Source: Crocinitomicaceae bacterium
Lineage (GTDB): Bacteria; Bacteroidota; Bacteroidia; Flavobacteriales_D; Crocinitomicaceae
Assembly (NCBI GenBank): GCA_021740745.1
Contig: JAIOZF010000007.1
Span: 1-59,061 of the forward strand
DNA length: 59,061 nt
Reading direction: 5' to 3'
The first letter of the stretch is position 1. Every line of letters begins with the position of its first letter. The position numbers were made by a program, and so were the translations under genes. Positions 22,140 to 31,700 of this stretch are shown piece by piece. A model generated the notes under the pieces. That model saw only the letters and a list, made by a program, of their open reading frames with translations, searched no databases and was not told the DNA's origin.

Positions 22140-23384
22140 TTAACCGATGAGTTGATTGAATAAAGCTGGATTATCATTTAGATAGTCAAATTGAAATTGA
22201 AGCATCTTTAAATTCGTTTGAATCGCATGTAAATCTTCCTTGTTTTTTAATTCAAGCCCAACGGCAGCAGGTCCGCTTTCTCGGTTGTTTTTTTTCGAGA
22301 ATTGGAAAAAAGTAATGTCATCCTCAGGTCCAATGATTTTTGTAACGAAATCTTTCAACGCTCCCGGGCGCTGAGGGAATTGAATTAAGAAGTAATGCTT
22401 TAAACCTTCGTAAAACAGCGATCGTTCTTTGATTTCCTCTGTCCTTGTGATATCATTGTTACTTCCGCTTACTATGCAAACTACTGTTTTGTTATTTATT
22501 TGAGCTTTGATGAAATCCAATGCTGCAATGCACAAAGCGCCAGCGGGTTCTACAACCATTGCTTCTTCATTGTACAATTGAAGAATAGTAGAACAAACTT
22601 TTCCTTCAGGAACAAGGACAACTTTATCTAGTGTTTCTTTGCAAATGTCAAAGTTCAGATCGCCCACTCTTTTAACTGCTGCGCCATCAACGAATTTATC
22701 GATACTTTCTAATACAACTATTTGACCAGCATCAAGGGATGTTTTCATGGAAGGGGCGCCTTCTGGTTCCACTCCAATTAGTTTTGTATGTGGACTTAAA
22801 ACCTTGAAGACAGAAGAAACACCAGCGGCTAATCCACCACCACCAATTGGCATTAAAAGAAAATCGATCGGCTCCTGAACTTGTTGAAGTATTTCTAAGC
22901 CAACTGTTCCCTGTCCGGCAATTACCATATTATCATCAAACGGGTGAACAAAAATGAATTCATGTTCTTTACAATACGCAGTTGCTTTGTTGTAAGCATC
23001 ATCAAATGTATCTCCGATGAGCACAATCTCAATTTTATCTTTTCCGAATAATTCTACTTGTTTCACCTTTTGTTTGGGGGTTGTAGCAGGCATGAAAATA
23101 GTTCCATGAATGTTCAAAAGATGACAAGAATAGGCGACTCCTTGTGCATGATTACCTGCACTTGCGCAAACGATTCTTTTTTGCTTCTGTTCTGTATTTA
23201 ACGCACTTATTTTGTTGTAGGCACCCCGAATTTTATAGGATCTTACAACTTGAAGATCTTCTCGCTTTAAATAAATTCGAGCATTAAATCTGTCAGATAG
23301 ATTGAAACTTGGGCTGCAAGGTGTTTCAGTGACAATGCCCTTCAAACGGATTTGCGCTTCTTCTATTTCTTTTAAAACATTCAT
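22140..23384 (-). CDS. ilvA: Threonine ammonia-lyase (threonine dehydratase)
   Basis: A 414-residue PLP enzyme that deaminates threonine to 2-oxobutanoate, the committed step to isoleucine. The PLP lysine is Lys51 in VRSYKIRGAYN; the glycine loop is MPIGGGGLAAG and a serine-containing SGSNNDITR lies before the C-terminal regulatory part. Residues ~330-410 are a single ACT-like domain (LIQFPQRPGALKDFV), shorter than the two-domain form of E. coli IlvA, so feedback by isoleucine may differ. It is the last gene of the ilv operon, six bases behind ilvC. Confidence 0.95.
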   Translation of the reverse strand: MNVLKEIEEAQIRLKGIVTETPCSPSFNLSDRFNARIYLKREDLQVVRSYKIRGAYNKISALNTEQKQKRIVCASAGNHAQGVAYSCHLLNIHGTIFMPATTPKQKVKQVELFGKDKIEIVLIGDTFDDAYNKATAYCKEHEFIFVHPFDDNMVIAGQGTVGLEILQQVQEPIDFLLMPIGGGGLAAGVSSVFKVLSPHTKLIGVEPEGAPSMKTSLDAGQIVVLESIDKFVDGAAVKRVGDLNFDICKETLDKVVLVPEGKVCSTILQLYNEEAMVVEPAGALCIAALDFIKAQINNKTVVCIVSGSNNDITRTEEIKERSLFYEGLKHYFLIQFPQRPGALKDFVTKIIGPEDDITFFQFSKKNNRESGPAAVGLELKNKEDLHAIQTNLKMLQFQFDYLNDNPALFNQLIG

Positions 23385-23390
23385 GCTGAA

Positions 23391-24860
23391 TTAGTTCAAT
23401 TTTTTCATATCGGTCATTGCCTCACGCAACCTAGTACCAACAATTTCTATTTCATGTTCACGGATTGACTTGTTTACCTGAATCAATTCCATATTATCAA
23501 CCTGAAATTCCATTGAGAATGGCCCGCCAATCACATTGATTTCTACATTTTTCATAAAGTCTGCTAACAAAGGTTGGCATGCATGATCAAATAAATAACA
23601 GCCGTATTCAGCTGTGTCAGAAATGATTCGGTTCATTTCGTGTAATTTCTTTCTTGCGATGGTATTGGCAATCAAAGGTGCCTCATGTAAAGATTCATAA
23701 TAAGCTGATTCTGCAATTATTCCAGTCGCGGTCATCCTTTCATAGGCCAATTCAACACCTGCTTTTACAAATGAAACCATTAAGATTCCGTGGTCAAAGA
23801 ATTCCTGTTCACTTATGTTATGAGGGATATTCGTGGTTTTCTCAAATGCCGTTTCTTTTGTTGCAAGGCGCCACGAAAGCAGTTCTTCATCACCATTTTT
23901 CCAATCTTCCATCATGCGTTTTGAGAAAGCACCACTCATGATATCATCCATGTGTTTTTGGAACAATGGTTTCATGATTGTTTTTAATTCTTCCGACAAA
24001 CGGAATGCTTCCAATTTTGCTGGATTATTCAGTCGATCCAACATATTAGTTATGCCACCGTGTTTCAATGCTTCTGTTATTGTTTCCCAACCAAACTGAA
24101 TCAATTTAGAGGCATACCCTGGTTCGATACCTTTTTCCACCATCTTGTTAAAGCAAAGTATCGATCCTGTTTGAAGCACACCGCAAAGTATAGTTTGCTC
24201 TCCCATCAAATCAGATTTTACCTCAGCAACAAAAGATGACAGCAGAACTCCTGCCCGGTGTCCTCCAGTAGCAGCAGCATATGCTTTAGCTTGTTCCAAA
24301 CCTTTTCCTTCAGGATCGTTCTCTGGGTGCACAGCTATTAATGTTGGAACGCCAAAACCACGCTTATATTCCTCCCTAACCTCTGTTCCTGGACATTTTG
24401 GTGCGACCATGATTACGGTGATATCTTCACGGATTTTCATTCCTTCTTCAACGATGTTGAATCCATGAGAATAAGAAAGTGTTGCTCCTTTTTTCATCAA
24501 TGGCATGATGGCATTCACGACCGAAGTGTGTTGTTTGTCAGGTGTAAGATTACACACAACATCAGCTAAAGGGATCATTTCTTCGTATGTCCCGACAATG
24601 AACTCGTTATCGCTGGCATTTTTCCAAGAAACTCTTTTTTCAGCAATGGCATCAGCACGCAATGCATAAGAAATATCCAAACCTGAATCACGCATATTTA
24701 GTCCTTGATTCAAACCTTGAGCTCCACATCCAACAATCACTATTTTTTTTCCTCTTAAGGCTTCGATTCCGTTTTCGAAATGTGATTGATTCAATAAAAT
24801 GCATTGTGCCAATTGTTCTATTTGCTTTCTAAAAGGCAATGTATTGAAGTAATTTTCCAT
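23391..24860 (-). CDS. ilvC: Ketol-acid reductoisomerase, class II (long form)
   Basis: A 489-residue enzyme that isomerises and reduces acetolactate or acetohydroxybutyrate to dihydroxy acids using NADPH and Mg2+. The nucleotide-binding motif is GCGAQG (44-49), continuing to YALRADA; the C-terminal half contains the duplicated all-helical KARI domain with [14 protein letters not shown] and [12 protein letters not shown]. The ~490-residue length marks the long class II type found also in E. coli, against ~330-340 residues for class I. It lies one base after ilvN, implying translational coupling. Confidence 0.96.
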
Positions 24861-24861
24861 T

Positions 24862-25383
24862 TTATTCTGCTTCTAATTCTTTTAAATATGTTTCTAATGT
24901 TTTCATTGGTTTTGATATCGCAACGCGTCCAGAACGGACAAACTCCAATACACCATATTGATCTAACTCATTGAATAAATCCTGCAATTCTTCAGGCTGA
25001 CCTGTTTTTTCGATGATTGTAAATTCTTTGTCCACTGTCAGGATGCGGGCATGATGATTACGCACAATGTGTTCAGTACCTCCATTCACAAATGATTCCG
25101 TTGTGATTTTGTACAAAGCAATCTCCTGATGCACTACCTGCTCATCTGTATGAAAGAATGCTTTCAAGACTTCAACTTGTTTTTCAATCTGTGCAACAAC
25201 TTTTTTTACTTGATCTAGATTCGTTTTTACAACAATTGTATAGCGATATACACCTTTTACTTCTGATTCTGAAGCAGTTATACTTTCGATGTTCAAATGC
25301 CTCCTGGTGAAGATGATTGTGATCCTATTCAAGATTCCAATACTATTTTCCGTGAAGACTGATATATTAAATACTGTTTCCAT
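24862..25383 (-). CDS. ilvN: Acetolactate synthase small (regulatory) subunit
   Basis: A 173-residue regulatory subunit. Residues ~5-75 are an ACT domain ([29 protein letters not shown]) that in the family binds valine for feedback inhibition; residues ~85-165 form the second small domain ([24 protein letters not shown]). It stimulates and regulates the catalytic subunit encoded immediately upstream in the operon, nine bases away. Length is normal for the IlvN/IlvH family (~160-175). Confidence 0.93.
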
Positions 25384-25392
25384 TTTTTCCTT

Positions 25393-27078
25393 TTATTTCA
25401 ATCGCATTTCAGAAACAGATGCTCCTGTTTCTACCATTGGGAACACATTTTCTTCCTGTTCAACCACAACTTCTAGTAAGAATGCACCTTTTGAGTTGAG
25501 CATATTATCCAGTGCCTGATCCAGTTCACCGCGCTCTGTGATTTTGATTGCTTCAATCGAGTAGCCTTTAGCAATTGCTGTAAAGTTTGGATTGACGATT
25601 TCTGTAAAAGAGTAACGCCTATCGAAGAACAGCTGCTGCCATTGACGCACCATTCCTAGGAAATTGTTATTCAAGATCATGATTTTCACATCAACCTGTG
25701 ACTGTAAGATCGTTCCTAGTTCTTGGATTGTCATCTGGAAACCACCATCACCAATGATTGCAACCACCGTTTGTTCTGGATTTCCGAGTTTGGCGCCAAT
25801 TGCTGCCGGCAATCCAAATCCCATTGTACCCAATCCACCAGAAGTGACATTATTTCGTTGACCTTTGTATTTGTAATAGCGCGAGGTTATCATTTGGTGT
25901 TGACCAACATCTGTAACAACGATTGCTTTTCCATTTGTCTTTTCAGAAAGAAGGTTAACCACCTCAGCCATCTTTAACTGATCGCTCAGTGGATGTATGG
26001 CCTCATTTACAACTTCACTTTTTTCTACTGCTTCCAGATCACGAAATTGCTGCAACCAATGCGCATACTGCTTTGGATTAATAAGTTCGGTCAGCATTGT
26101 TAGTGCTTCCTTCGCATCCGCGTGTACTGCTATATCCGCAGGAATAATCTTGTTGAGTTCTGCTTTGTCGATATCGATGTGAATTACTTTCGCTTGCTTC
26201 GCATATTGGGAAACATCGCCTGTTACACGATCATCAAATCGCATTCCAACTGCAAGGAGCACATCACAATCATTCGTCAAAACATTTGGTGCATAGTTTC
26301 CATGCATTCCCAAGTAACCAACATACAAACTATGATCCGCTGGAAAAGCACCCAGACCTAATAAGGTTGAAGCGATTGGGATTCCACTTTTTTCGGCGAA
26401 AAGCATTAATTCCTGCTCAGCGTTTGAAAGAAATATACCTTGACCTATGAGCATCAAAGGTTTTTGAGCTGCGTTTAGTAATTCGACGGACTCATTAATT
26501 CGTGCAAGATCAATGTTTGGTGTTGGCACATAGCTTCTTATCTTGTCGCATGGTTTATATTCAAAGTCCATCATTCCAAACTGAGCGTCTTTTGTTATAT
26601 CAACCAACACAGGACCAGGTCTACCCGAACGAGCAATATAGAACGCTTTTGCCATCGCATCTGGAATATCGGCAGCTTTGGTAACCTGGATATTCCATTT
26701 CGTCACAGGCATGGAAATACCGATAACATCTGTTTCTTGAAAAGCGTCTGTTCCTAATAAATGTGATGCCACTTGACCAGTCACACATACTACAGGTGTC
26801 GAGTCGATCATGGCATCAGCTAATCCAGTGATCAGATTCGTCGCACCAGGACCCGATGTTGCAAAACATACACCTACCTTTCCAGATGTGCGCGCATAGC
26901 CTTGCGCTGCGTGAATTCCCCCTTGTTCATGACGGACTAAAATGTGATTAATTGTGTCCTTAAAATCATATAATGCGTCGTAGATCGGCATTATCGCTCC
27001 TCCGGGATAACCAAATATGGTGTCAACTTTTTCTATTTGCAGACAGTGCATAACTGCCTCTGCTCCTCTTATATTCAT
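25393..27078 (-). CDS. ilvB: Acetolactate synthase catalytic subunit
   Basis: A 561-residue thiamine-diphosphate enzyme that condenses pyruvate with pyruvate or 2-oxobutanoate, the shared first step for valine/leucine and isoleucine. The N-terminal TPP glutamate region is GYPGGAIMPIYDAL and VRHEQGGIHAAQGYAR; the FAD/central domain and the TPP-pyrophosphate motif GDGGFQMTIQELGTI with downstream NN are present near the C-terminus. Operon partners are ilvN downstream and ilvD four bases upstream. Confidence 0.96.
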   Translation of the reverse strand: MNIRGAEAVMHCLQIEKVDTIFGYPGGAIMPIYDALYDFKDTINHILVRHEQGGIHAAQGYARTSGKVGVCFATSGPGATNLITGLADAMIDSTPVVCVTGQVASHLLGTDAFQETDVIGISMPVTKWNIQVTKAADIPDAMAKAFYIARSGRPGPVLVDITKDAQFGMMDFEYKPCDKIRSYVPTPNIDLARINESVELLNAAQKPLMLIGQGIFLSNAEQELMLFAEKSGIPIASTLLGLGAFPADHSLYVGYLGMHGNYAPNVLTNDCDVLLAVGMRFDDRVTGDVSQYAKQAKVIHIDIDKAELNKIIPADIAVHADAKEALTMLTELINPKQYAHWLQQFRDLEAVEKSEVVNEAIHPLSDQLKMAEVVNLLSEKTNGKAIVVTDVGQHQMITSRYYKYKGQRNNVTSGGLGTMGFGLPAAIGAKLGNPEQTVVAIIGDGGFQMTIQELGTILQSQVDVKIMILNNNFLGMVRQWQQLFFDRRYSFTEIVNPNFTAIAKGYSIEAIKITERGELDQALDNMLNSKGAFLLEVVVEQEENVFPMVETGASVSEMRLK

Positions 27079-27082
27079 TTCA

Positions 27083-28756
27083 CTATTTATCAGTTATACA
27101 ACCTTCAGAAGCTGATGCAACGCATTTCGCATAGCGGTATAAAACGCCTTGTTTTACCTTCAATTCAGGTTGTTTCCAGTTCATTCTTCTTTGTGCGATT
27201 TCCTCTTCTGAAATGTGGAGCGTCAATTTATTATTGACAGCATCGATTGAAATTTTATCTCCATCCTTCACAAGGGCAATCGTTCCACCTTCAATTGCTT
27301 CTGGCGTAATATGTCCGACAACAAAGCCATGTGTTCCGCCAGAGAATCTTCCATCTGTGATCAACGCCACAGTTGAACCTAGTCCAGCGCCCATTATTGC
27401 TGAAGTAGGTTTTAGCATTTCCGGCATTCCTGGACCTCCTTTTGGACCGCAATAGCTTATCACAACTACACTTCCTTCCTTTACACGACCATCTCGCACT
27501 CCATCAATTACAGTGAATTCATCTTCGAAAACAACAGCAGTTCCTTCAAAAAACTCACCTTCTTTGCCACTTATCTTTGCTACTGATCCTTCCTCTGCGA
27601 GATTGCCATACAAGACTTGTAAGTGACCTGTTTCTTTTATCGGATCGCTCAAATCACGGAAAACATCTTGTCCTTCCATCAGATTTGGAACGTCCGCCAA
27701 ATTCTCTGCTACGGTCTTTCCTGTAACTGTTAAACAATCACCATGGATCAATCCTTTGCCTAGTAAGTACTTCAATACAGCTGGAACCCCTCCAACGCGG
27801 TGAAGGTCTTCCATAAGATACTTTCCGCTTGGCTTAAGATCTGCTAAAACAGGAGTCTGGTCACTAAAACGTTGGATATCATCAACTGTCAATTTCAATC
27901 CAACAGAATGCGCCATTGCTATTAAATGAAGTACTGCATTCGTTGATCCACCGAGTACCATCACCATTGTGATTGCATTGTCAAATGCCTTCATCGTCAT
28001 GATATCTCGCGGCTTGATATCTTTTTCCAATAGCAAGCGTATTGCCTTTCCGGCATCAAAGCATTCCTGCTGTTTTTCGGGACTCAAAGCTGGGTTCGAT
28101 GAGCTGTAAGGCAAACTCATTCCAAGTGCTTCAATTGCAGAGGACATCGTATTAGCAGTGTACATTCCCCCGCAAGCTCCGGCACCAGGACAAGCATTTT
28201 TTACAATTCCTTTAAAATCTTCAGGCGTAATAGAATTACTGAATTTTTTACCTAATGCCTCAAATGCAGAAACAATATTCAGCGATTCGCCTTTCCATTT
28301 ACCAGAGTGGATTGTCCCTCCATAAACCATAATTGAGGGTCTGTTCAAGCGTCCCATTGCAATCACGGTTCCTGGCATATTTTTATCACATCCTGCAACT
28401 GCAATCATTCCATCGTACCATTGCGCTCCCATGACGGTTTCTATGGAATCGGCGATTATATCGCGTGAAACCAATGAAAAACGCATTCCGTTAGTTCCAT
28501 TTGATATCCCATCACTTACTCCAATTGTATTGAAAATCAATCCAACAAGATCTTCATCCCAAACCGAGGATTTAATGTTTTTTGCCAATTCATTTAAATG
28601 CATATTGCAGGTATTTCCTTCATACCCCATACTAACTATTCCGACTTGGGCTTTTTTCAAGTCTTCTTCTGTTAAACCGATTCCATAAAGCATTGCTTGA
28701 GATGCTGGCTGTGTATCGTCTTGAGTGACGGTTTTACTGTATTTGTTTAGTTCCAT
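27083..28756 (-). CDS. ilvD: Dihydroxy-acid dehydratase
   Basis: A 557-residue iron-sulfur enzyme that dehydrates 2,3-dihydroxy-3-methyl acids to the 2-keto acids of valine and isoleucine. The three cluster cysteines are visible at Cys50 ([11 protein letters not shown]), Cys123 (AGCDKNMPG) and Cys195 ([15 protein letters not shown]). The C-terminal [20 protein letters not shown] block carries active-site residues. It lies five bases after ilvE. Length and motif order are as expected for IlvD. Confidence 0.96.
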
Positions 28757-28761
28757 TTTTT

Positions 28762-29649
28762 TTAGAGATAAACTTCTTTGTATTCATTTGTAGCAACACG
28801 TCGCTTGTACATGCGTTGGATAAGTATACTATTTGTGTCGTCCCATTTCATCGGAAACGTATAATCGTTAAAGAGCTCAATACCGATTACTTCTGCAGCG
28901 GTTCCGCAAAAGAAAGCCGCATCAGCCTTGTAGATTTCCTCTGGTGTAAAGTAGCGTTCTTCAACATCAATATTCAATTCCTTCGCTAATTCAAAAACGG
29001 TTGCTCGTGTTATGCCTGATAGGATATTTCCCAGCGGAGCAGTGACAAGTTTACCGTCTTTTTCGAAGAAGAAATTTGCGCCTGGACCTTCTGCCACGTT
29101 GCCGTTCATATCTGTTAATAGCGCTTCGTCAAATCCTTTTGATTTTGCTTCAGTAGTTGCGAGGATTGAATTGGTATAATGTCCTACTACTTTTGCCTGC
29201 ACATGACATGCTTTTGGATTTGGTCGCTGATAAGATGATAACATAACCTTTAACATTTTATCACCAAGGTATTTGCCCCATTCCCAAGCCATGATTACAA
29301 CATGAACTTCATCGGTTGGAGTTAAAGACATATTTTCCCCTAAATAGACTAAGGGGCGTATGTAGGCATCTTTCAAACCATTCATTTCAAGTAATTGATA
29401 CGTGATTTGTTCCAACTCCTCAGAGGAGTATTTCAAGTTGATATGCATCATCATTGCAGAATAATGCAAGCGATCATAATGTTCTTTTGCTTTGAAAATT
29501 CGAGTTCCATCTGGAGTGTCGTAAGAACGAATTCCTTCGAAAACACCATTCCCATAGTGCATTGTTTGATTAAACAATCCAACTTTAGCATCCTTTGCTT
29601 TTACAAATTCACCGTTTAAAAAAACTACTGTTTCATCTGAATAATACAT
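28762..29649 (-). CDS. ilvE: Branched-chain amino acid aminotransferase
   Basis: A 295-residue fold-type IV PLP aminotransferase that makes isoleucine, valine and leucine from their keto acids with glutamate. Visible marks are the N-terminal [20 protein letters not shown], the PLP lysine region [17 protein letters not shown], and [16 protein letters not shown]. It is the first structural gene of the ilv operon. The first ATG lies 26 bases behind the attenuator hairpin, so its expression should depend on readthrough of that hairpin. Confidence 0.95.
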
Positions 29650-29675: not shown

Positions 29676-29710
29676 AAAAAGCCTTCCTCAACAAGTGAGA
29701 AAGGCTTTTT
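29676..29710 (-). terminator. Attenuator terminator in front of ilvE
   Basis: On the minus strand a 15-bp stem is formed by AAAAAGCCTTTCTCA (29710-29696) and TGAGGAAGGCTTTTT (29690-29676) around the loop CTTGT; one pair is a G-T wobble and the right arm ends in five T residues. It lies between the isoleucine-rich leader peptide and ilvE. It may also end transcripts from the gene upstream at 29817. Confidence 0.85.
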
Positions 29711-29733
29711 TATAACAACAAGCATATCTCACT
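29694..29733 (-). promoter_or_regulatory. Antiterminator pairing of the ilv attenuator
   Basis: AGTGAGA (29733-29727, two bases behind the leader-peptide stop) is fully complementary to TCTCACT (29700-29694), which is part of the left arm and loop of the terminator. The two pairings cannot coexist. A ribosome that reaches the leader stop would cover AGTGAGA and permit termination; one stalled at the isoleucine codons would leave it free. Confidence 0.75.
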
Positions 29734-29735
29734 CC

Positions 29736-29780
29736 CTACGGAATGTCAATAATGATTGGAATTAAAATTGCTTGTGTCAT
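29736..29780 (-). CDS. ilvL: ilv operon leader peptide
   Basis: A 14-codon reading frame, MTQAILIPIIIDIP followed by TAG, with six isoleucines and one leucine. It ends 25 bases before the left arm of the terminator hairpin and 86 bases before ilvE. High content of the operon's end product in a short peptide upstream of a terminator is the hallmark of ribosome-mediated attenuation. Three isoleucine codons are consecutive (ATC ATT ATT). A possible -7 element, TAGGTTTA (29811-29804), would give a 17-base leader before this ATG; it differs from TAnnTTTG at one position. The gene name is by analogy with enterobacterial ilvL. Confidence 0.82.
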   Translation of the reverse strand: MTQAILIPIIIDIP

Positions 29781-29816
29781 ATACCTAAAATTTGTACCTA
29801 ACTTAAACCTATACTA

Positions 29817-31700
29817 TTATTTATTGACTGTAAACTTATCTGAGTATAAGACAAAATCATTTGTCAGTTTCAGAAAGTAAACCCCCGTCGAATGAGCGTC
29901 ATTTAATTTGATTTCAACTTTTCTATTGTTCGCCAAAGTAAGTACTTCAGTTCGTTGAACAAGTTGTCCCATTGAATTATATATTTCTGCCATCATTGTT
30001 TGATTTTCATCAAATTGATAGTTAATTGTAATGGACTGATTTTCTGCATTAAAAAAGGAATTAATTTCCTGATTACCCTCGATTGAACAAGAATTATCGA
30101 CAGAAATGGTTTTTAGTATTTTTTCGTTGCCATCAAAATCAGTTTGTGCAATTCTGTAGTAATTAATACCTGCCAAAGTTTGATAATCTTCAAACGAATA
30201 ATCAGTTTGCACAGTCGTTGTGTTTTGTCCACTTATTGTGGCAATTACATAAAATTCCAAATTACTTTCTGCCCGTGAAATTGTGAAATAGTTGTTATTG
30301 TATTCTGTTGCTGTAGACCAACTTAAATTAGCGTGCGAGTCCTTGCAGTTGCCTGAGAAGTCAATTAATTCGACTGGCAACGCTGTGCCGTAACATGAGC
30401 CTTGAAGCAAAGGGTAATTGGTAATAGCACTGGTAGTAGGAGCAATTGTATTAATTGTGTTTATAGTCCCTGATCTTGACGGATTTCCCGAGTTTTGCAA
30501 GTTAATTATTGCGGTATTATCATTTCTGATTGCTTGAGCAGTTGCACTAAAAGTGCATTCGTTAATATTGAAAATTGCTTGATTACCGAATCCTACTCTT
30601 GCATATATATGGTTACCACTCGAAGAGGAAGAATTATTAGTAAAGGTGCAAGTTGTTAAATTAACTGTTGCAGTATTACCTGACCCTGCCAAACTAGTAT
30701 TTATAGCAATTGCACCGCCATTGCCGCTATTACTTACAGAGTTATTCGTAAAAGTACAGTTCGTAAAAGAGACAGTTGCACCTCTTCCAACTGTCACTGC
30801 ACCGCCGTATTTTGGTCCAGAACCGGCGAAAGTAGAATTGTTAGAAAAACAAGAACCACTTACACTTAAATTAGCTCCACTAATAAATATTGCTCCACCT
30901 TCTGAAGTATTCCGATTGTCAGCAAAAATTGAATTTGTGACGTTTACATTAGTTGTATTATTCCCTAAAATATATAACCCAGATCCCCCTTGAAAATCTT
31001 TGGAATTATTTGAAAATGAATAATTATTAAAAGTGACATTGTTTCCATTACCTTCTACATTTACGCCGCCACCCGCTACAGAACCTGAAGAGTTGCAGTT
31101 TGATCCACCTCCATTAAAAGTCACCGATGAACCACCATCAATGACGATTGTGGCTGAGCCACCCCCTGGTCGATTTTCATCTGTCAGAACATTATTAAAT
31201 ACGATACCATTCACACTTGACACTTGGATCGCGCTTGCTCCTCCAGTTCCGTTATTGTATCCAATGATGTAAATTCCGGCTATTGTTATATTATTTGCCG
31301 TAATTTCAAACAGACGATTTGCGTCTGAACTTACGCCAGCATTATCGAATATCGTTTTTGCCGGTCCAGCGCCAGTTATAGAAATACCAGCAATACTTAG
31401 GACAAGATTGGCATCATTAAAAGTTCCAGCATCTATTCGAATAATATCTCCGGAAGTTAAGAGGCTAGAATAGGTTGTCAATAAATTAGTAAGTGTGGCC
31501 TTAGGAGTTGAAGGCGACAAACCATTATTTGAGTTGTTTCCGATTGCTGTGCAATAGAAGTCACCTATTGTGCTTCCATCATTCACATAATAAGTAGCGG
31601 ATAAGGATATATGTGAAATGCAGGTTAACAAAATTGTACAGAAATTAAATTTAAGGTTTTTAATATTCTTGGACAAGTTCACCAAATGAAATGATTTCAT
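29817..31700 (-). CDS. Secreted beta-helix protein with T9SS type A sorting domain
   Basis: A 627-residue exported protein. Residues ~35-420 form a right-handed parallel beta-helix of the polymorphic-outer-membrane-protein style: repeated NNSxxxxGG and xFTNNS units such as CTFTNNSVSNSGNGGAIAIN. Residues ~425-540 form an Ig-like domain (PVELIDFSGNCKDSHANLSW) common before T9SS tails. The last ~80 residues are a type A sorting domain (AEIYNSMGQLVQRTEVL, STGVYFLKLTNDF). The N-terminal signal peptide is preceded by a charged stretch of about 18 residues. Its 5' leader shares a motif with the T9SS gene at 7238. Confidence 0.85.
   Translation of the reverse strand: MKSFHLVNLSKNIKNLKFNFCTILLTCISHISLSATYYVNDGSTIGDFYCTAIGNNSNNGLSPSTPKATLTNLLTTYSSLLTSGDIIRIDAGTFNDANLVLSIAGISITGAGPAKTIFDNAGVSSDANRLFEITANNITIAGIYIIGYNNGTGGASAIQVSSVNGIVFNNVLTDENRPGGGSATIVIDGGSSVTFNGGGSNCNSSGSVAGGGVNVEGNGNNVTFNNYSFSNNSKDFQGGSGLYILGNNTTNVNVTNSIFADNRNTSEGGAIFISGANLSVSGSCFSNNSTFAGSGPKYGGAVTVGRGATVSFTNCTFTNNSVSNSGNGGAIAINTSLAGSGNTATVNLTTCTFTNNSSSSSGNHIYARVGFGNQAIFNINECTFSATAQAIRNDNTAIINLQNSGNPSRSGTINTINTIAPTTSAITNYPLLQGSCYGTALPVELIDFSGNCKDSHANLSWSTATEYNNNYFTISRAESNLEFYVIATISGQNTTTVQTDYSFEDYQTLAGINYYRIAQTDFDGNEKILKTISVDNSCSIEGNQEINSFFNAENQSITINYQFDENQTMMAEIYNSMGQLVQRTEVLTLANNRKVEIKLNDAHSTGVYFLKLTNDFVLYSDKFTVNK

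Follow-up and report, generated by a model that had tools for sequence, protein, structure and literature searches.

The ilvEDBNCA operon of this Crocinitomicaceae bacterium is very probably controlled by ribosome-mediated transcription attenuation that would respond to charged tRNA-Ile, as judged from the leader sequence and its counterparts in related bacteria. The window (the whole analysed stretch of 59,061 nucleotides) contains, upstream of ilvE, an isoleucine-rich leader ORF, an antiterminator, and an intrinsic terminator (Table 1). The mechanism itself is classical, and with high confidence the locus adds a member to a known class of attenuators; the serial arrangement seen in relatives is less usual, and worth following.

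Leader, antiterminator, and terminator upstream of ilvE

As proposed in the initial annotation, a leader ORF of 14 codons ends on TAG and encodes six isoleucines (codons 5, 7, 9, 10, 11, and 13); the peptide MTQAILIPIIIDIP also includes one leucine (TTA) and no valine. Its ATG is located 131 bases 5′ of ilvE, which starts at position 29649, 26 bases past the terminator. The sequence AGTGAGA, two bases 3′ of the stop codon, and its complement TCTCACT were found where the annotation had placed them, and the terminator hairpin does have the 15 pairs attributed to it, one of them G-U, with a short T tract (TTTTTAGTT). No ATG ORF with six isoleucines per ten residues appeared in any of 2000 shuffles, and a window-wide scan for ATG ORFs of 8–45 residues with six isoleucines in nine returned this leader as the sole case. 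The RNA from 29811 to 29670 folds with a z-score of −4.45, a stability that none of 200 shuffles equalled. Within the window, the antiterminator pairing is by itself modestly unusual (p = 0.04), and its energy of −6.5 kcal/mol is far weaker than that of the terminator; a start-codon stem, P1 (ACAAGCA/TGCTTGT), which was absent from the initial annotation, is by itself non-significant (p = 0.16). These two pairings are unconvincing singly, and the weight of the evidence lies with the cross-species comparison.

The first gene behind the leader is presumably ilvE, followed by what we take to be ilvD, ilvB, ilvN, ilvC, and ilvA; these names come from recognition of the translations rather than from a family search. 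Among relatives, 105 loci offered enough sequence to locate ilvD; it lies within 400 bases of ilvE in 104 of them and 428 bases on in L080.

Table 1. Features of the ilv leader region in the window, and related loci with tandem attenuators.
Feature	Position or locus	Strand	Basis or remark
Leader ORF	29736..29780	(-)	MTQAILIPIIIDIP + TAG, six Ile codons; shuffles and window scan
Antiterminator 5′ arm AGTGAGA	29727..29733	(-)	Sequence, swap test, folding
Antiterminator 3′ arm TCTCACT	29694..29700	(-)	Common to the terminator's 5′ arm and loop
Intrinsic terminator hairpin	29676..29710	(-)	15 pairs, five T in stem, then AGTT; −18.8 kcal/mol
P1 5′ arm ACAAGCA	29769..29775	(-)	Leader codons 2–4; compensating changes in genus
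P1 3′ arm TGCTTGT	29718..29724	(-)	Pairs with 29775–29769; no-ribosome fold without antiterminator
Possible −7 box TAGGTTTA	29804..29811	(-)	One mismatch to TAnnTTTG; weak for the window
ilvE, branched-chain aminotransferase	28762..29649	(-)	First gene of the operon; homologues found
ilvD, ilvB, ilvN, ilvC, ilvA (operon remainder)	22140..28756	(-)	Named from translations
Tandem loci, first part	L021, L022, L028–L035, L040–L043, L046, L049–L054, L061, L064		Upstream of ilvE
Tandem loci, second part	L068, L069, L095, L104, L119, L122–L125, L127, L128, L133, L134		Upstream of ilvE

Conservation and co-variation in related bacteria

Related loci came from a named scan (80 kept of 231) and from a family search in which 58 of 200 genomes had an IlvE match at E ≤ 1e-60; with the addition of 27 further upstream regions, the set came to 137 loci, and removal of entries exactly identical over their last 150 bases left 123. 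These 123 upstream regions are not independent, since the window itself and 22 Tenacibaculum records are among them. A strict detector required a terminator, an ATG ORF of 7–45 residues with at least five isoleucines or valines in ten, and an antiterminator helix close to the ORF stop; this stop had to fall no more than 5 bases inside, and no more than 60 bases upstream of, the 5′ arm of the terminator. The strict module was present in 109 of the 123 distinct ilvE upstream regions, in none of 615 dinucleotide shuffles, and in none of the 123 reverse strands; in the genus of the window, all 11 distinct sequences carry it. Other carriers, by their record titles, include Flavobacterium, Tenacibaculum, Kordia, Chitinophaga, and Chryseolinea, and, among metagenome-assembled genomes, Crocinitomicaceae, Cyclobacteriaceae, Chitinophagaceae, and Melioribacteraceae.

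Within 450 bases upstream of ilvE, the strict module is absent from 14 of the 123 regions (L008, L012, L015, L020, L027, L036, L055, L062, L099, L114, L115, L116, L126, and L137); extension to 900 bases adds a module in L062 and leaves 13. Inspected by eye, L027, L036, and L126 resemble shorter or mismatched modules, L137 is cut by a contig end, and L055, L114, L115, and L116 show no module. In a sample of the phylum, IlvE was found in 90 of 158 genomes, and the upstream regions of 40 were read, the window's own genome excluded. Of these 40 genomes, 14 have a close IlvE, and the module was found in 8 of them (two of the 14 were already in the set, L162 = L054 and L166 = L064); the other 26, whose IlvE is distant at about 40% identity, gave no module. 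In the genomes read, the module therefore follows this IlvE type.

The antiterminator core and its terminator partner change together between groups: TGAGA/TCTCA in the group of the window, GGATGG/CCATCC, CGGAGGA/TCCTCCG in Chitinophaga, GGGGCG/CGCCCC in Cyclobacteriaceae and Chryseolinea, and GATACAG/CTGTATC in Tenacibaculum. A MAFFT alignment of the genus misplaced the terminator arms, and arm-swap tests took the place of base-pair counting; up to 34 bases around the leader stop were compared with the terminator arms, with no selection for pairing. In 104 of 115 representatives, pairing with the own arm was better than the average for the arms of other clusters (mean 16.6 vs. 11.8), and when arms were permuted among the 38 clusters, none of 20,000 rounds reached the observed fit; some clusters are shifted copies of each other and a few modules in the loose set are chance ORFs, both of which work against this result. 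The conservation of the peptide and of the alternative stems, which the initial annotation had proposed to look for in relatives, is thus found for both, complete with compensating changes. Nothing in the comparison refutes attenuation, and the detector and permutation counts support it strongly.

The same comparison bears on other readings of the locus. Control by the leader chiefly at the level of ilvE translation, or by its peptide in trans, as a report on peTrpL describes for leader peptides elsewhere (PMC7298713), is very unlikely: the co-varying element is the arm common to antiterminator and terminator, and the last terminator in Tenacibaculum lies ∼190 bases before ilvE, far for hiding a start codon. 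The terminator's presence in 147 modules is not independent evidence on this point, since it belongs to the definition of the detector. It is scarcely credible that the hairpin serves only as the terminator of the neighbouring upstream ORF (29817–31700) and that the isoleucine-rich ORF arose by chance in AT-rich intergenic DNA; the upstream ORF does stop just 36 bases short of the leader start, and an exact promoter box is lacking from the window, yet the recurrence of the module in real loci, as opposed to shuffles and reverse strands, and the co-variation of its arms across Flavobacteriales, Chitinophagaceae, Cyclobacteriaceae, and Melioribacteraceae contradict this reading. A riboswitch or T-box, binding a metabolite or a tRNA and containing the ORF by coincidence, as the elaborate fold without a ribosome might suggest, is hardly credible either, as no Rfam family matched at threshold (five matches at E up to 5 each reached 34–54% of the gathering score), and the conserved elements are the product-rich peptide and the position relative to the stop, whereas the RNA sequence varies between groups.

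Folding states and proposed mechanism

Transcription attenuation implies that the ribosome position decides which hairpin forms, and this was the outcome of equilibrium folding of the free RNA, with a ribosome covering 15 bases counted from the first base of the A-site codon. In the window, a stall at Ile5, 7, 9, 10, or 11 gave a probability of 0.89–1.00 for the antiterminator at RNA 3′ ends of 29694–29682; without a ribosome, this probability was 0.00–0.09 and that of P1 was 0.83–0.96, the antiterminator being low because 29724–29718 is paired in P1 and some of AGTGAGA is tied up in a small hairpin. The claim that a stall at the isoleucine codons frees the antiterminator holds in the folding model for Ile5 to Ile11 and fails for Ile13, which is too near the stop. 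That a ribosome at the stop would cover the antiterminator arm is borne out as well, partly by construction, since the search for the arm was confined to the vicinity of the stop; in the 147 modules, the median start of the arm is 2 bases before the stop codon ends.

Across these modules, the median antiterminator probability was 0.97 in the stalled state vs. 0.57 without a ribosome, with the stalled value higher in 133. The no-ribosome value exceeded 0.5 in 80 of the 147; in the genus, 8 of 11 sequences, the window among them, stayed at 0.05 or less, and L088–L090 gave 0.82–0.93. The high values in these modules indicate that the step by which lack of translation would switch the operon off is not general. 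Compensating changes in P1 occur within the genus (ACAAGCA/TGCTTGT in the window, ACAGGCAG/TTGCCTGT in L091, and GAAGCAGACAAT/ATTGTCTGCTTC in L001), and in a swap test within the genus, a small one, the observed fit was reached by 11 of 720 permutations. P1 attains p < 0.05 in 15 of 148 modules and is no general feature of other groups.

Once the 3′ arm of the terminator is complete, the terminator wins at equilibrium in the window; the decision must therefore be kinetic, and so must the blocking of the terminator, since the antiterminator takes just the top 5 of its 15 pairs. A kinetic decision between hairpins is usual in known attenuators. A pseudoknot between the antiterminator (29733–29727) and the lower 10 terminator pairs, which are left free, is conceivable from an argument on geometry rather than a computation, and with this compatibility the block may be purely kinetic. 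Relatives such as L092, whose antiterminator has 12 pairs, avoid the pseudoknot compatibility seen in the window.

In the proposed mechanism, RNA polymerase would start just 5′ of the leader ORF. In the absence of a ribosome, P1 and the small stop-codon hairpin would hide AGTGAGA, the terminator would form, and the operon would be off; a free-running ribosome would open P1, reach TAG, and cover AGTGAGA, again permitting the terminator and leaving the operon off. A ribosome slowed at isoleucine codons 5–11 would keep P1 open and AGTGAGA free to pair with TCTCACT before the 3′ arm of the terminator is made, so that the polymerase would continue into ilvE. Beyond what was observed, namely the parts, how they are conserved and co-vary, and how each state folds at equilibrium, this scheme adds a predicted promoter position, ribosome stalling, polymerase/ribosome timing, and isoleucine response.

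Transcription and translation start

The −7 promoter consensus of Bacteroidota is TAnnTTTG. Positions 29781–29880 of the window contain no exact match; the candidate box with one mismatch, TAGGTTTA, would put the transcription start close to the position given in the initial annotation (near 29797), and TTTA is found at 29831–29834, 19 bases upstream of this candidate. Among relatives, the 100 bases preceding the first leader contain an exact TAnnTTTG in 43 of 104 loci (4.5 per kb), as against 11 of 110 stretches (1.2 per kb) from the last terminator to ilvE; none of 37 intervals between tandem modules contains it, a weak observation given their total of only 808 bases. In a separate count, the motif preceded the leaders in 31 of 75 loci vs. 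6.4 expected from shuffles. In relatives, this distribution points toward attenuation as well, more weakly than conservation does. The leader start has T rather than A at −3, described in the available text of a study on F. johnsoniae as a poor start context (PMC6847099). Repeats of TTAGGT or TTTAGGTT are located 5′ of the leader start in the window (29783–29811, reverse strand) and in L082, L001, L003, L089, and L091; they could be a promoter or a ribosome-loading sequence.

Amino acids probably read by the leaders

At the window locus, sensing of isoleucine only is plausible from the codons of the leader. The suggestion that valine may not be sensed fits this valine-free leader; it does not carry over to the relatives, where 135 of 147 modules contain valine. 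Taken together, the peptides of the 147 modules contain 939 isoleucines, 357 valines, and 155 leucines; 12 modules are without valine, 6 of which lack leucine too, and an isoleucine-only leader is therefore the exception among relatives. IlvE was found in the window's own genome and in 11 of the 25 other genomes of the genus. LeuA (model TIGR00973) had no match in the 26 genus genomes and matched all 14 control genomes; the pathways of the genus are patchy, with HisG in 7, a TrpE-type protein in 8, and homoserine dehydrogenase in 7 of the 26.

Other amino acid operons of the genus also have leaders of this kind. His-run leaders such as MNFIQLHHHHFHTCSQAS (L140), followed by T-tailed hairpins as judged by eye, precede hisG in 7 of 7 genus loci (L138–L144), and Trp-run leaders such as MKTQYTNWWWHTTFRWCDWQ (L145) precede trpE in 4 of 4 strong matches (L145–L148), two of them on a GTG start and with hairpins again judged by eye; attenuation in this genus is therefore not limited to ilv. 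No threonine leader was seen before homoserine dehydrogenase in 7 genus loci (L160 is cut); the gene lies close behind another gene in 6 of the 7.

Tandem attenuators

The window has the single form, with one attenuator. In 36 of the 123 ilvE loci, two complete Ile/Val attenuators occur in series, and in one of these loci, L134, three, each module with its own antiterminator and terminator ahead of one ilv operon. Tenacibaculum contributes 19 of its 22 loci and Kordia 2 of its 7; 13 belong to the window's family, and the remaining two are L061 and L064, the latter from Melioribacteraceae. A loose tandem count of 40 loci was dropped on account of chance hits in L072 and L073, in favour of the strict count of 36.

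Comparison with known systems

The locus shows several of the features by which attenuators are recognized: a short leader rich in product codons (six isoleucines in 14 residues) that is kept in relatives; an intrinsic terminator between the leader and the first gene, with a short T tract; an antiterminator that excludes it and shows compensating change, the overlap in the window extending to the terminator's top five pairs only; and, by equilibrium folding only, a ribosome position that decides between the hairpins. E. coli ilvGMEDA and the enterobacterial trp, his, and ilv attenuators are alike in the ORF of product codons, the stop beside the antiterminator arm, the mutually exclusive antiterminator and terminator, and the protector stem at the leader start, for which P1 is a candidate here. 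The E. coli ilv leader senses isoleucine, valine, and leucine, whereas the leader in the window would read isoleucine only; further differences from enterobacterial attenuators are the short antiterminator here and the often tandem arrangement in relatives of the window. Unlike enterobacteria, Bacteroidota initiate without Shine-Dalgarno sequences, according to the available text of one study (PMC6847099).

The initial annotation regarded attenuation as far less documented in this phylum than in enterobacteria, which needs qualifying. For F. psychrophilum, a transcriptome study reports strong clues for leader-peptide attenuation before amino acid operons, and lists pheA and hisG among family-conserved 5′ elements without an Rfam match; the phylum and the proposed mechanism are the same, whereas the main text contains neither "ilv" nor "isoleucine," and its available text mentions no tandem leaders (PMC9723704). 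Long 5′ leaders of Bacteroides thetaiotaomicron, in the same phylum, harbour short ORFs reminiscent of leader peptides, the example being a hypothetical gene and "ilv" absent from the main text (PMC7366714). Branched-chain leader control outside Proteobacteria is represented by Corynebacterium ilvBNC, which belongs to another phylum (PMC11857589, PMC10272879). The nearest case to the tandem loci is Salmonella mgtCBR, in which a single transcript carries two consecutive leader ORFs (PMC3641672); as far as the accessible text goes, these leaders respond to different signals, ATP and proline, in an additive manner, whereas the Bacteroidota tandems repeat an Ile/Val sensor with two intrinsic terminators. 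According to the available text of a 2010 survey, leader-peptide systems had been known only in Proteobacteria and Actinobacteria before its Firmicutes case (PMC2965389). A literature search by title and abstract, with few subscription journals, returned no Bacteroidota ilv attenuator and no same-signal tandem leader peptides. The abstract of a 2004 comparative study in FEMS Microbiology Letters by Vitreschak and colleagues reportedly mentions attenuators in Bacteroidetes/Chlorobi.

Implications

On balance, we favour the view that leader-peptide attenuation is a principal ilv control in much of Bacteroidota, and that several lineages evolved two or three same-signal attenuators in series. If this is true, read-through of a tandem locus would need a stall at each attenuator, leak probabilities would multiply, and the response would be steeper; ribosome and RNA polymerase would also be tightly coordinated at the leaders of a phylum that initiates without Shine-Dalgarno sequences. 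Since attenuation needs a ribosome at the leader before the polymerase passes the terminator, the locus offers a test case for the coordination of translation and transcription in Bacteroidota. The 147 modules with their co-varying arms show attenuator duplication and rewiring, and the comparative set allows the annotation of leader peptides where Rfam has no match, as is shown at this locus.
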